Positions 4,538 through 50,055 of a DNA stretch of 64,000 nt are shown here, piece by piece. The notes beneath the pieces were generated by a model. That model saw nothing but the letters and a program-made list of their open reading frames with translations. It did not search any database and had not been told where the DNA came from. The translations under genes were made by a program, and so were the position numbers. Numbering within the stretch: position 1 is the first letter of the stretch; every line of letters starts with the position of its first letter. The stretch is taken from the NCBI RefSeq assembly GCF_900187445.1, contig NZ_FYEB01000004.1:1-64000 (forward strand), in the 5' to 3' direction. This stretch comes from Pseudomonas sp. Irchel s3b2 (GTDB lineage Bacteria; Pseudomonadota; Gammaproteobacteria; Pseudomonadales; Pseudomonadaceae).

Positions 4538-4555
4538 TATGGCGAATGTCTTACA
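4538..4555 (+). promoter_or_regulatory. GacA-box-like upstream activating site of rsmX copy 1
   Basis: TATGGCGAATGTCTTACA. The right half (CTTACA) matches the GacA-dependent TGTAAG-N6-CTTACA site; the left half is degenerate. Its centre lies about 65 bases before the predicted small RNA start, the usual distance for rsmX/Y/Z genes. Confidence 0.55.
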
Positions 4556-4610
4556 CGCAGTAGTAGCTATGTCGTCTATTGCAGATTGGATCCCAAGCGT
4601 AATCTAGCTC

Positions 4611-4727
4611 CATCAACTGAAGCACAGGAAGTGCTCCAGGGTCACGGATGATCGACCATAGCAAGGATCGCTGCCGACAGGGAGTCGATATGGTCTTGGG
4701 AAAAACCCGCTTCGGCGGGTTTTTTTT
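4611..4727 (+). ncRNA. rsmX: RsmX-like regulatory small RNA, copy 1
   Basis: About 117 nt, beginning after a TAATCT -10-like box and ending at a GC-rich terminator (ACCCGC-TTCG-GCGGGT plus eight T). GGA triplets occur at 4627, 4646, 4665 and 4681. Several are displayed in small hairpin loops such as CAC-AGGAA-GTG and CGAC-AGGGA-GTCG. This is the hallmark of RNAs that titrate the translational repressors RsmA/RsmE in the Gac/Rsm cascade. The size, the GacA-like box and the tandem homologue at 4983 all fit RsmX. Identification is by structure, not by a database search. Some bases differ from copy 2 in loops and stems. Confidence 0.8.
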
Positions 4728-4756
4728 CGTCTTCAGAAAACTGAAACCCGATCTCC

Positions 4757-4889
4757 TGTAGCAGCTGCCGAAGGCTGCGTTCGGCTGCGAAGCAGTCGCA
4801 GAGTCAGACGCCGCGGTTTTTCAGTTTCACCATATTTGTAGGGTTTACGACTGCTTCGCAGCCGAACGCAGCCTTCGGCAGCTGCTACA
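4757..4889. repeat. REPIN-like long inverted repeat, copy 1 (TGTAGCAGCTGCCGAAGGCTGCG family)
   Basis: Two perfect 42-bp inverted arms (4757-4798 and 4848-4889) surround a 49-bp spacer. This is the form of a REPIN, two REP sequences in opposite orientation. A second copy follows rsmX copy 2. Confidence 0.85.
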
Positions 4890-4909
4890 AATGCAGATTT
4901 CAGGCATTG

Positions 4910-4927
4910 AATGGTCAATGGCTTACA
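4910..4927 (+). promoter_or_regulatory. GacA-box-like upstream activating site of rsmX copy 2
   Basis: AATGGTCAATGGCTTACA. It has a perfect right half CTTACA and a degenerate left half. It is centred about 65 bases upstream of the predicted start of the second small RNA, the same geometry as copy 1. Confidence 0.55.
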
Positions 4928-4982
4928 CGGAGCCGGTGGTATGTCGTCTTTTGATGCTTAACCGGTGCGTTTAATCTGGATC

Positions 4983-5099
4983 CATCAACTGAAGCACAGG
5001 AGGTGCTCAGGGTCATGGATGATCGACCATTAGCCAGGATGGCTGTCGACAGGATGTCGCAATGGTCTTGAGAAACCCGCTTAGGCGGGTTTTTTTTCG
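4983..5099 (+). ncRNA. rsmX: RsmX-like regulatory small RNA, copy 2
   Basis: About 117 nt, starting after TTAATCT and ending at ACCCGC-TTAG-GCGGGT plus eight T. GGA triplets lie at 4999, 5017, 5037 and 5052. Two are presented in near-ideal hairpin loops, AGCC-AGGAT-GGCT and CGAC-AGGAT-GTCG, with others in CACAGGAGGTG and CATGGATG. This is the architecture for binding RsmA/RsmE dimers. It is clearly the tandem homologue of the copy at 4611, and the stems are cleaner here, so this may be the more active copy. Confidence 0.85.
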
Positions 5100-5126
5100 T
5101 CTTCAGAAAACTGAAACCCGATCCCT

Positions 5127-5259
5127 TGTAGCAGCTGCCGAAGGCTGCGTTCGACTGCGCAGCAGTCGCAGAATCAGACGCCGCGGTTTTTCAGTTTCAC
5201 CGTGCTTGTAGGATATACGACTGTTTCGCAGCCGAACGCAGCCTTCGGCAGCTGCTACA
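5127..5259. repeat. REPIN-like long inverted repeat, copy 2
   Basis: Same family and layout as the element at 4757, with a few substitutions in the left arm (TCGACTGCGCAGCAGTCG in place of TCGGCTGCGAAGCAGTCG). It occupies the same position relative to the second rsmX terminator, showing that RNA gene and REPIN were duplicated together. Confidence 0.8.
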
Positions 5260-5280
5260 GGGGCAGGTTTTCAGGCGTTG

Positions 5281-5298
5281 GATGGTCAAAGGCTTACA
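5281..5298 (+). promoter_or_regulatory. Orphan third GacA-box-like site
   Basis: GATGGTCAAAGGCTTACA is nearly the same as the box before rsmX copy 2 and sits at the same distance after the second REPIN. No third small RNA follows: the 3' end of the AraC-type gene begins 38 bases later. It looks like the end of the duplicated unit. Confidence 0.45.
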
Positions 5299-5335
5299 TG
5301 CTTTCCCTGCCTGATTCGGTTTGCGTGGAAAATCT

Positions 5336-6262
5336 CTAGATCGCCTGAGCGCGTAGTCGGGCGAGGTCCTTGATCGGCGAGGCGCCGAACAGACGGCTGT
5401 ATTCACGACTGAATTGCGAAGGACTTTCATAGCCCATTTTGTAGCCGATTGATGAAACGTCGCTGCTCTCCGACAACAGCAGCCGCCGCGCTTCCTGCAA
5501 GCGCAATTGCTTCTGATACTGCAACGGGCTCATGGCCGTCACCGATTTGAAGCGGTGATGCAGCGCCGAGGTGCTGAGGTTAATCATCTGCGCCAGGTTT
5601 TCGATGCTCAGGGGGTCGGCGTAATGGTTGTTCAGCCATTCGATAGCACGGCTGATGCGGTGGGTCTGGGTGTCTGGGATGGCGATTTCATGCAAGCGCT
5701 GGCCCTGCTCGCCGCGCAATAACCGATAGAAGATTTCCTGTTGCGCCAGTGGCGCCAGGGTCGCGATATCGTCCGGGGTTTCCAGCAACCTCAGTAGTCG
5801 TAACACGGCATCGAGCAAAGGCGCGTCGATTCGGTCCAGAAACAGCCCACGTCCAGAATCCCTCACCCCGGAGGGGCTGACATCGGCGATCAAACGACAG
5901 ATCTGCGCCGGGTCGATATCCAGACGCAAACACAGATAAGGCCGGTCCGGGCTGGCCTCGATCACTTTGCCGGCCAAGGGCAGGGTGACCGACACCACCA
6001 GGTAATTGAGCGGGTCGTAAACATAGCTTTCAGCGGCCAGGCGTACTTCCTTGCGTCCTTCGACAATCACGCACAGTCCCGGTTTGTGCACTGTGTGCAG
6101 GTCTTCGGTGGGATGGTCGCTGCGGATCAGGTGTAAGTCCTTGATCGGTGTGGCGTGAACGCCGTATCCCGGGGCAAAGCGCTTCATCAGGCTCACCAGT
6201 TCGGCGCGCCGAACGTCGATGCCGTCCTGGGGTAGGGCATTCGCGGAAATGGAAGTCGTCAT
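5336..6262 (-). CDS. AraC-family transcriptional regulator
   Basis: A 308-residue regulator. The N-terminal half is the AraC_N (cupin-like effector) domain found in AraC proteins that sit beside oxidoreductases; the C-terminal ~100 residues carry two helix-turn-helix motifs (SIENLAQMINLSTSALHHRF and the region ending in GYESPSQFSREY). The start at 6262 is chosen because AGGGAG precedes it; an in-frame ATG three codons earlier overlaps that site. It is divergent from the short-chain dehydrogenase gene at 6464 with ~200 bases between, the usual layout of a regulator and its target. The inducer is unknown. Confidence 0.85.
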   Translation of the reverse strand: MTTSISANALPQDGIDVRRAELVSLMKRFAPGYGVHATPIKDLHLIRSDHPTEDLHTVHKPGLCVIVEGRKEVRLAAESYVYDPLNYLVVSVTLPLAGKVIEASPDRPYLCLRLDIDPAQICRLIADVSPSGVRDSGRGLFLDRIDAPLLDAVLRLLRLLETPDDIATLAPLAQQEIFYRLLRGEQGQRLHEIAIPDTQTHRISRAIEWLNNHYADPLSIENLAQMINLSTSALHHRFKSVTAMSPLQYQKQLRLQEARRLLLSESSDVSSIGYKMGYESPSQFSREYSRLFGASPIKDLARLRAQAI

Positions 6263-7734: not shown

Positions 7735-8421
7735 TCACTGGAGGGCGAGTTTCGCCGCTGCACGCTCGGTGATTTCCGAGCGCAATTTCAACGACGCGGC
7801 AGCGCGTTTGCGGGCTTCCTCCAGCACACTGGCCGGAGCTGTCTCGGGACTGCCCGAAGCAAACGGTGGCGCCGGCGCGTATTCCAGCTGCAACTGAACC
7901 AGTTGTGCCGTGTCCTTATCGAACAATTCAGCGGCCAGGGTCAGGGCAAAATCGATGCCGGCGGTGATCCCGCCACCGGTCAGCAGATTGCCGTCACGCA
8001 CCACCCGATCCTTCACGGGGATCGCTCCCAAAACCCCGAGCAATTCGTGATACGCCCAGTGAGTGGTGGCGCGTTTGCCCTTGAGCAATCCCGCCGCGCC
8101 AAGCACCAGCGCGCCGGTGCAAACCGAAGTGACATACTTCGCATTAGCGGCCTGCACCTTGATGAAGGCCAGGGTTTCGTCATCCTCCATCAACGGCCCG
8201 ACACCGCCGCCACCGGGAATGCAGATCACATCCAGCGGCGGGCAATCGTCGAAGGTGATGGTCGGCTTCAATGCCAGCCCGGTGCTCGCGGTGATCAGGA
8301 CCAGATCTTTCCAGATCAGATGCACTTTCACGTCCGGCAGCGAGGCCAGCACGTCATAAGGGCCGGTCAGGTCCAGTTGTTGAACCTGTGGAAACAACAG
8401 AAAGCCGATCTGCAACGTCAT
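7735..8421 (-). CDS. inhA: Isonitrile hydratase, DJ-1/PfpI superfamily
   Basis: A 228-residue protein that by my recognition closely resembles Pseudomonas isonitrile hydratase along its whole length, beginning MTLQIGFLLFPQVQQLDLTG. The nucleophile cysteine is in SVCTGALVLG (about residue 101) and the following helix, and ATTHW lies after it. The enzyme hydrates isonitriles to N-substituted formamides in the cytoplasm. The start at 8421 is supported by AGGAG upstream. It diverges from a GlxA-type regulator whose start is 91 bases away and which is probably its activator. Assignment to this exact activity rests on family similarity only. Confidence 0.85.
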   Translation of the reverse strand: MTLQIGFLLFPQVQQLDLTGPYDVLASLPDVKVHLIWKDLVLITASTGLALKPTITFDDCPPLDVICIPGGGGVGPLMEDDETLAFIKVQAANAKYVTSVCTGALVLGAAGLLKGKRATTHWAYHELLGVLGAIPVKDRVVRDGNLLTGGGITAGIDFALTLAAELFDKDTAQLVQLQLEYAPAPPFASGSPETAPASVLEEARKRAAASLKLRSEITERAAAKLALQ

Positions 8422-8512
8422 GGCGTTTTTTCTCCTGGTTGGGGTGGACGGCTTCACTGTAGGCTCGTAGGATCTGGCGCATACGCCAATAACCCCACGA
8501 ATTACGCCAAAC

Positions 8513-9505
8513 ATGCCGAACAACCCGAAAACCATTCATGTGCTGGCCTTTGCCAACGTGCAACTGCTCGACGTCACCGGGCCGTTGCAGGTGTTCGCCT
8601 CGGCCAACGACATTGCTCGCCAGCAAGGTTTGCCGCCGCCCTATGCGCCGTCGGTGATTGCCAGCGGTGGCGGGGCGGTGATGTCATCGGCGGGGTTGGC
8701 GTTGTTGGCTGAGCCGCTGCCGGATCGGGGCAGCGATACCTTGATCATTGCCGGTGGCTGGGGCGTTTACGCAGCGGCAAAAGATGAGTCGCAGGTGACA
8801 TGGGTACGTGAGCACGCGATGCAATGCCGGCGGGTGGCGTCTGTGTGCACCGGGGCGTTTTTGCTGGCGGCCAGCGGTTGGCTCGACGGTCGGCGGGTGG
8901 TGACGCACTGGACCCGTTGCGAACAATTGGCGCACCAGCATCCCAAACTACAGGTCGAACCCAACCCGATCTTCATCAACGACGGCCCGGTCTGGACCTC
9001 GGCCGGGGTTACCGCGGGCATCGACCTGGCCCTGGCGATGGTCGAAGAAGATCTAGGGCGAACCATGGCCCTGGAGGTCGCCCGGCAACTGGTGGTGTTT
9101 CTCAAGCGTCCGGGTGGCCAGTCGCAGTTCAGCGTGACCCTGTCTTTGCAAAAGGATGGCGACCGATTTGACGAACTTCACGCCTGGATCAGCGAAAATC
9201 TCACCAAGGACCTCGGCATCCCGACCTTGGCCTTGCAAGCGGGCATGAGCGAGCGCAGCTTCGTCCGTCACTACCGTGCCGACACCGGCCAGACCCCGGC
9301 GCGGGCCATCGAACTGATTCGGGTCGAGACCGCGCGACGGCTGCTCAGCGACACCGGTGTATCGATCAAACGGGTCGCGGTGCAATGCGGGTTTGGCAGT
9401 GAAGAAACCTTGCGCCGCAGTTTTCTACGGGCCATGGGTGTGACACCGCAGGCTTATCGCGAAAGGTTTTCCGTCAGCTCACCAGCAGATTCAGTATTGC
9501 CTTGA
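8513..9505 (+). CDS. GlxA-family transcriptional regulator (DJ-1/PfpI domain plus AraC HTH)
   Basis: A 330-residue regulator. Residues ~5-190 form a DJ-1/PfpI glutamine-amidotransferase-like domain (VASVCTGAFLLAASG, VVTHW, TSAGVTAGIDLAL). Residues ~225-320 carry an AraC-type double helix-turn-helix (TLALQAGMSERSFVRHYRAD and VAVQCGFGSEETLRRSF). It has the architecture of GlxA/CdhR/ArgR-type regulators that sense nitrogen compounds. It is divergent from inhA, so it is likely its regulator (inference from context). Confidence 0.88.
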   Translation: MPNNPKTIHVLAFANVQLLDVTGPLQVFASANDIARQQGLPPPYAPSVIASGGGAVMSSAGLALLAEPLPDRGSDTLIIAGGWGVYAAAKDESQVTWVREHAMQCRRVASVCTGAFLLAASGWLDGRRVVTHWTRCEQLAHQHPKLQVEPNPIFINDGPVWTSAGVTAGIDLALAMVEEDLGRTMALEVARQLVVFLKRPGGQSQFSVTLSLQKDGDRFDELHAWISENLTKDLGIPTLALQAGMSERSFVRHYRADTGQTPARAIELIRVETARRLLSDTGVSIKRVAVQCGFGSEETLRRSFLRAMGVTPQAYRERFSVSSPADSVLP

Positions 9506-10886: not shown

Positions 10887-11264
10887 GAGGTCAGCCCTGT
10901 CAGGCGGAGTGTGTTTAAGTTCATCGCGGGTAGGCCTTGATCCTACAAAAAGTGTCGTAAATGTGGATATTTCTGACGAGTTTTGGCGGTTGTAGGTTAG
11001 GAAAGGGAGCCGATAGTCTTTCCGGGTCGCTGCCAATTCAGCGACCGGGTTTGGTCACCCGTGCAATGTCAGGCGTGCAAGCGCCAACGTGAGCATGTCG
11101 GCGCTTTTTCTTGTGCTTGTCGGTATGCTTCGCGGTGGGCTGTGCGCGGGGCACTTTCGAGTGCGCCGGGTGCCTGACTTCCCGGTTGACCAACCTGCGT
11201 ACCGCCCACCACCCATCGTTTGGTCACGACGGTGGTGAGCTTCATGAATGTCAGGAGTTACACC

Positions 11265-11639
11265 ATGATAAAAGACAGTCCCAATCCCCCAGAAACCGAC
11301 AACGTTTCCCCCTACGAATCCCTCGATTCGAAAAAACTCCACGACGCCGCCGAACGCGCGCTCGACCACTACCTCAAGCCACCGCCCAAAGAACCCAAGA
11401 GCCGTAAGCCAAGCAAAATGTTTCTGGTTGCCCCGGACATGGACAACGAAAGCCTGCTCGCTCATGTCTGCGAATCCCTGGCCTCAGCCAGCGTCATGAC
11501 CAGCGACATTGCCGCGTATGTCGACGCCCCGCAGCGGCATACGCTCCTGGCGATTCAGCAGGTCATCATGCTGGCCGAGCTGGCGGTGAATCGGGTGCTG
11601 GATAACGTCGACGTACCGAAACCTGCGTCACACAGCTGA
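11265..11639 (+). CDS. DUF6124 family protein
   Basis: A 124-residue protein with the Pseudomonas DUF6124 (formerly DUF3077) pattern: an N-terminal proline-rich SPNPPETDNVSPYESLDSKK, then KLHDAAERALDHYLKP, a middle segment starting FLVAPDMDNESLLAHVCESL, and a C-terminal helix IQQVIMLAELAVNRVLDNVD. ATG 11265 is preceded by AGGAG. The family is widespread and multicopy in Pseudomonas, with no known function. No signal peptide is seen. Confidence 0.8.
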   Translation: MIKDSPNPPETDNVSPYESLDSKKLHDAAERALDHYLKPPPKEPKSRKPSKMFLVAPDMDNESLLAHVCESLASASVMTSDIAAYVDAPQRHTLLAIQQVIMLAELAVNRVLDNVDVPKPASHS

Positions 11640-49045: not shown

Positions 49046-50055
49046 GTGGAAGCGGGCTTGCCCGCGATGGCCATGGGTATCTACACATCTCTTGCGCTAC
49101 AGAGATTCACTGCCGGGGCTTGGTGTTTTGGAGTACAGATCCGTTTCTGCGGTTGTGCTGGCTGACGGTTCTTGCCCTTTGTAGGAGCGAGGCTTGCCCG
49201 CGAAGGCGGCCTGGTAGGCGATTGGGGTCTTTGATCGTGTACATATCCGTTTCTGCGGTCACGGCCGCTGGCGGTTTCGCTTTTACAGCGAGTCACTTGG
49301 AAAAGCCCCAAGTAACCAAGGGCTCTTGCCCCACCATTCGGTGCCTCGCTTAGGCTCGGCATGCCCTCACTCCGGCATTGCTCCGGGGGCCCGCCGCCAT
49401 CGGCCATCCATGGCCGGGGGCGGCTACCGCGGCATCCTTGCCGCGGTGCCCCCTGCGCAATACCTGCGTTCGGCCTCTGGGAAAGGGGCAAACAGATCAA
49501 GATCAAAAGCCAAAGCAACGGCAACGGCAACGGCAACGGCAAGATCAACAGCTTCGCGGGCAGGCTCGCTCCCACATTAGTTGGAGTGGGTACGTCCGGG
49601 GAAGATTGGTCGGCTGACAGGCCGCCACCGCAGCGATGCGGCGACCCGACAAGCCAGCTCCCACAAAAAATCAGAGCACATCCAAAATCAGCGCCCATCC
49701 ACTCTGCTTTCACCACTCTACAGGCCGAGCGTTAGCTCGCCTGCAGCTGTTGATCTTGACGCACCGCGCCCTCGAGAGGCCGAGTGGAGGTTCTGCGCAG
49801 TGGGCAACCCGGCATGGATGCCGGGTTAGCCGCGCACGGCCATGGATGGCCGATCGCGGCGGGCCCACGGAGCAGGACCGGAGCGAGGGCATGCCGAGCC
49901 TGGGCGAGGCACCGAACGACAGGGGCAAAGAGCCCTTGGTTACTTGGGGCTTTTCCAAGTGACCCGCCGTAAGGGCGGAACCCTAGGCGGCCGTTACCGC
50001 AGAAACGGATATGTACACCATCAAAATCGGGAAGATATGTAGATACCCATGCCGC
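49046..50055. repeat. Repeat-dense intergenic region with long imperfect inverted repeat
   Basis: About 1.2 kb between the nucleotidyltransferase and the terminal NRPS gene holds no convincing gene. Two arms, ~49230-49580 and ~49735-50055, are imperfect reverse complements. Both contain the ACTTGGAAAAGCCCCAAGTA block, an ATCCGTTTCTGCGGT block and a CGGCCATCCATGGCCG block. Extra single REP arms lie at ~49046 and ~49180. The centre includes a hexamer run (GGCAAC)4 near 49515-49542. Open frames here are by-products of the repeats. Confidence 0.8.

Follow-up and report, generated by a model that had tools for sequence, protein, structure and literature searches.

Tandem rsmX genes in related pseudomonads

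The tandem arrangement of rsmX genes is already known from related soil bacteria. In Pseudomonas brassicacearum NFM421, rsmX-1 and rsmX-2 form a tandem in which either gene has a box of its own; both are reported to be exclusively GacA-dependent on the basis of Northern blot and lacZ fusion, and tandem rsmX is noted for F113 and P. stutzeri as well (PMC7911923). The window, by which we mean the entire 64,000-nt stretch of Pseudomonas sp. Irchel s3b2 DNA analysed here, resembles NFM421 in having two tandem rsmX genes that each possess a box. It differs from NFM421 as described in the passages covered, which make no mention of a REPIN, in also containing REPINs and a third box. In P. brassicacearum CCUG 51508 the tandem lies beside the araC orthologue, and its box 2 is identical to the published sequence (PMC7911923). 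No account of rsmX together with REP elements was found in the part of the open-licence PMC literature that was covered.

The window locus is a tandem rsmX-1/rsmX-2 pair of ordinary type, part of the Gac/Rsm cascade, and its history is mostly ordinary genome evolution. Probably, two superimposed duplications produced the tandem pair and left box 3 as the right-hand end of the younger copy. Coordinates of all features are collected in Table 1.

Table 1 Features of the rsmX locus in window coordinates.
Feature	Position	Strand	Remarks
GacA-type box 1, TATGGCGAATGTCTTACA	4538..4555	+	CTTACA begins 61 nt before rsmX-1
TAATCT, likely -10 hexamer of rsmX-1	4600..4605	+	role inferred
rsmX-1 small RNA including terminator	4612..4725	+	RF02144, 119.6 bits
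Source segment: terminator 1, spacer, REPIN 1, spacer, box 2	4700..4927	+	direct repeats
REPIN 1, a pair of inverted REP ends with GTAG heads	4757..4889	.	arms 42 nt, 100% complementary
GacA-type box 2, AATGGTCAATGGCTTACA	4910..4927	+	CTTACA begins 61 nt before rsmX-2
TAATCT, likely -10 hexamer of rsmX-2	4972..4977	+	role inferred
rsmX-2 small RNA including terminator	4984..5095	+	RF02144, 105.4 bits
Younger copy of 4700-4927	5070..5298	+	direct repeats; ~228 nt, behind rsmX-2
REPIN 2	5127..5260	.	arms 46 nt, 91% complementary; 93% identical to REPIN 1
Orphan box 3, GATGGTCAAAGGCTTACA	5281..5298	+	read as fossil
Old flank, last rsmX unit to araC stop	5299..5335	.	aligns with P. farris and P. 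lini by way of P. mandelii 29
AraC-family regulator gene, convergent with rsmX	5336..6262	-	AraC_N and HTH_18 (Pfam); start codon picked by eye

The rsmX RNAs of the window

Both RNAs score above the gathering score of 56 of the Rfam covariance model RF02144, and the Rfam search found no further rsmX above the cut-off in the rest of the 6.2-Mb genome. These scores bear out the initial annotation, made from the sequence alone, which had taken the two RNAs to be rsmX-like and duplicated in tandem. Both predicted folds outdid each of 200 dinucleotide shuffles, with z at -3.65 for rsmX-1 and -4.25 for rsmX-2, and several of the GGA triplets, five in rsmX-1 and four in rsmX-2, are unpaired in them. 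TAATCT lies 50 nt past the start of CTTACA in both units and was found at the corresponding place in 70 of the 83 rsmX copies examined. Elsewhere the genome encodes one RsmZ and one RsmY above the cut-off, along with three CsrA-family genes. By analogy with the family, GacA would activate rsmX-1 and rsmX-2, each through its own box, and the RNAs would take up RsmA/RsmE-type repressors through their GGA motifs.

GacA-type boxes and the orphan box 3

The pattern ATNGNNAANNNCTTACA has three matches in the whole 6.2-Mb genome, all at the rsmX locus, a count on which we rejected box 3 as a chance site; the reversed box pattern, run as a control, matched once forward and once in reverse. For comparison, boxes were examined at 46 rsmX loci, a selected rather than random sample. 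At these loci 82 copies carry a box, with exact CTTACA in 77 and a one-base variant in 5, and the box is absent from two truncated copies. Spacing between box and RNA is 61 nt in 80 of the 82 boxed copies and 60 nt in the other two. The three window boxes had been described as combining a perfect right half with a poor left half. CTTACA is indeed intact in all of them, but weakness on the left is the normal state of rsmX boxes rather than a sign of decay: TATAGCGAATGTCTTACA is the copy-1 box at 30 of the 42 loci where that copy carries exact CTTACA, and the box published for P. brassicacearum rsmX (PMC7911923), TATAGCGAAACGCTTACA, is likewise weak on the left. The commonest copy-2 form, present at nine of the 46 loci, is AATGGTCAATGGCTTACA.

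A third box does lie at 5281, as the initial annotation had proposed, and its orphan status is supported: RF02144 finds no rsmX match after it, and at the conserved spacing of 50 nt past the start of its CTTACA there is GCCTGA in place of TAATCT. The box was also said to run into the AraC gene, but 37 nt separate its end from the araC stop. It might nonetheless be a live GacA site that drives an RNA antisense to araC or serves as a GacA decoy, given that its CTTACA is intact, that its left half is no poorer than in copy-2 boxes that work (G049 and G087, for instance, have AATGGTCAAAGGCTTACA), and that AAATCT is present at 5330. This hexamer, however, starts 37 nt after the CTTACA start and not 50, which is 13 nt too close; no RNA is recognisable downstream, and the corresponding box of P. 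mandelii 29 has lost one base in its left half. We regard a live box 3 as quite improbable.

Box 3 is best read as the fossil of a third unit, its RNA either lost or never copied, and is presumably inactive. This reading from sequence comparison follows from P. mandelii 29 (a genome from a collection other than our 398-genome genus sample), which shares the box and whose flank aligns behind the rsmX-2 terminator. After rsmX-2 this strain has the copied spacer, a short REPIN remnant, the box, the flank, and the araC stop, with the same breakpoint as the window. In P. farris and P. lini, the sequence that aligns with this flank lies immediately 3' of the rsmX-2 terminator. The segment from terminator through REPIN to box 2 was therefore placed between rsmX-2 and the old flank, probably before the lineages of the window and of P. 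mandelii 29 separated. Compared directly with P. farris, the window flank that follows box 3 gives a weak match, with 21 of 2000 shuffles as good, so the link to the old flank is made through P. mandelii 29. That strain has no full REPIN at either place, and loss there or later gain in the window must be assumed.

An 87-nt probe reaching from before box 3 to araC matched 4 of the 398 genus genomes, at full length only in the window's own genome and partially in G114 (40 nt) and G220 (30 nt), both on the box-2 side, and in G179 (21 nt). Among the relatives examined, none was seen with an intact third rsmX unit at the place of box 3. The gene 3' of rsmX-2 is the araC orthologue in some relatives and another gene in others; gene content on this side of rsmX-2 is thus unstable. 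By eye, the sequence at this place in some relatives resembles the DJ-1/PfpI-type gene of the window (7735-8535, PF01965).

Age of the RNA duplication

Within the genus sample, rsmX was found above the cut-off in 234 of 398 genomes. At least two copies are present at 37 of the 46 loci examined, in keeping with the initial annotation's remark that rsmX is doubled in some P. fluorescens-group strains and with the tandem described in PMC7911923. At 24 of these 37 tandem loci the starts of the copies are separated by under 245 nt, compared with 372 nt in the window.

The window repeats had been ascribed to a single duplicated unit of box, RNA, terminator, REPIN and box. One recent tandem duplication of this whole unit would account for the direct repeats, which run at a spacing of 370-372 through box, RNA, terminator and REPIN, but it is contradicted by the distribution of the copies. 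In a tree of 82 rsmX copies (midpoint root, bootstraps not settled), window copy 2 and copy 2 of 21 other loci form one clade (100/99), and window copy 1 groups with other copy-1 and single sequences, so that each has its counterparts in other genomes. Tandem relatives that are free of REPINs also exist: inspection by eye found none in the rsmX spacer of G005, G049, G046, G058, G108, P. lini or P. brassicacearum, and several loci of the 22-member copy-2 clade have a spacer without one. Moreover, the two window units are alike at 51 of 71 aligned positions (72%) from box to RNA start but at 124 of 133 (93%) in the REPIN, gap columns excluded. This is a fairer contrast than one with the RNA body (77 of 86, likewise without gap columns) because the latter is presumably under selection. 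A single whole-unit duplication, which we rejected on the tree and the REPIN-free tandem relatives, is very improbable.

The evidence instead indicates that the RNA duplication is old and common to many relatives and that the REPIN entered the spacer afterwards, and it points to at least two superimposed duplication events in the window. Fifteen copy-2 sequences from P. brassicacearum, P. corrugata and relatives make up a second clade of the same tree; window copy 2, unlike that of P. brassicacearum, falls outside it, and one duplication or two may lie behind these copy-2 groups.

REPINs and the younger duplication

Each window REPIN consists of an inverted REP pair and a spacer that form a hairpin in the predicted fold, with 49 nt between the paired arms in both. 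They resemble the REPINs described for P. fluorescens SBW25 (PMC3116915) in having two inverted REP ends in a hairpin and apparently many genomic copies, and differ from the GI type described there in their arms and spacer. Our genome search gave 75 matches, many of which are the same palindromic element scored on each strand. As in SBW25 (PMC3116915), the window genome contains a RAYT-type gene with REP ends of nearly identical sequence next to it. Two Y1_Tnp genes score above the cut-off: one (L146) has TGTAGGAGCTGCCGAAGGCTGCG nearby, one base off the REP end of the window, and REP ends near the gene at L147 resemble those in the spacer of G328. With a matching REP beside it, the L146 RAYT-type gene is a candidate cognate of the window REPIN family.

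The spacers of other relatives hold differing kinds of REP, as judged by eye, with one kind in G262 and G383 and another in G053, G328 and G100. REPs of the GTAGCAGCTGCC type occur in the spacers of G114, G355, G083 and G220, often as a short palindrome or remnant (again by eye). A REPIN may collapse to a single long palindrome, as mentioned in PMC3116915, and G114, G355 and G083 look to be cases of this.

The initial annotation noted that a REPIN of one family follows each RNA and was co-duplicated, and this held: REPIN 1 and REPIN 2 are 93% identical, and the nearest other copy in the genome reaches 84%. Similarity between the units extends into both REPIN flanks (27 of 29 positions alike on the left and 31 of 37 on the right, box included) and drops to 17 of 38 after the box, gap columns excluded throughout. 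The 37 nt ending with box 3 match the flank of box 2 better than all of 2000 shuffles. Homology was called from the longer spacer-REPIN-box stretch only; the bases after the last T run were set aside as having no diagnostic value by themselves, given that TTCG also stands there in copies of the P. brassicacearum group. Gene conversion between the two spacers could be an alternative source of the raised REPIN identity. Independent insertion of the two REPINs at matching places by RAYT transposition, although REPINs are mobile, RAYT-type genes are present in the genome and relatives' spacers carry different REP families, was rejected as scarcely credible in view of the shared flanks and of REPINs that are mutual best matches by nine points of identity. 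Unlike the transposing REPINs of SBW25 (PMC3116915), the window element was copied by local duplication.

A proposed sequence of events for the locus

Homology, order, breakpoints and distribution of the segments are observed in the comparisons above, and from here we infer how the duplications came about. An old duplication of box, RNA and terminator, without a REPIN, would have come first, and a REPIN would then have entered the spacer between the two RNAs. Subsequently, ~228 nt from terminator 1 to box 2 would have been copied locally behind rsmX-2. This last copying most likely took place by unequal exchange at the near-identical terminators, which would have created a short-lived third unit whose RNA was later deleted. 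Alternatively, one replication slip with two template switches may have produced the same end sequence in a single step.

Two events that by eye look like one are separated in this way, and a regulatory box that stands alone is not necessarily a hidden promoter. Gain and decay of extra rsmX copies do occur in this group. Conceivably, though we think it rather unlikely, REPINs within rsmX tandems serve as sites of breakage or template switching and repeatedly change rsmX copy number and Gac/Rsm dose; G083, P. mandelii 29, the window and P. frederiksbergensis 38F7 would then be stages. REPINs as the cause are only a suggestion from comparison by eye. If REPINs do destabilise rsmX arrays, secondary metabolism would have a global regulator whose dose is tuned by a small mobile repeat.

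Truncated rsmX copies were seen in two relatives. In P. frederiksbergensis 38F7 (L112, a contig also present as G328; reverse complement, 2882-2965), a third rsmX copy lacks its box and 5' part, begins at a REPIN end and is followed by the araC orthologue. In G083, a copy-1 rsmX RNA without its 5' end lies behind a REPIN (L069 1-190, contig 105), while on a second contig (end of L068, contig 124) a complete copy 1 runs up to the contig end. As these copies are on separate contigs, they may represent an extra copy or an assembly break.

Other structured RNAs in the window

A C4 antisense RNA (RF01695, 64.9 bits) lies beside its c4-a1b1 target partner (RF03163, 57.4 bits) at 11013-11216. The pair is upstream of a DUF6124 gene (11220-11639; Pfam PF19619), which is not an evident prophage immunity gene. 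TwoAYGGAY, an RNA of the same Rfam clan as rsmX, has matches at 49387-49451 (-) and 49802-49866 (+), with 46 and 52.3 bits against a cut-off of 43. The two are in opposite orientation, 350 nt apart, and each spans positions 45-113 of the 168-position model.
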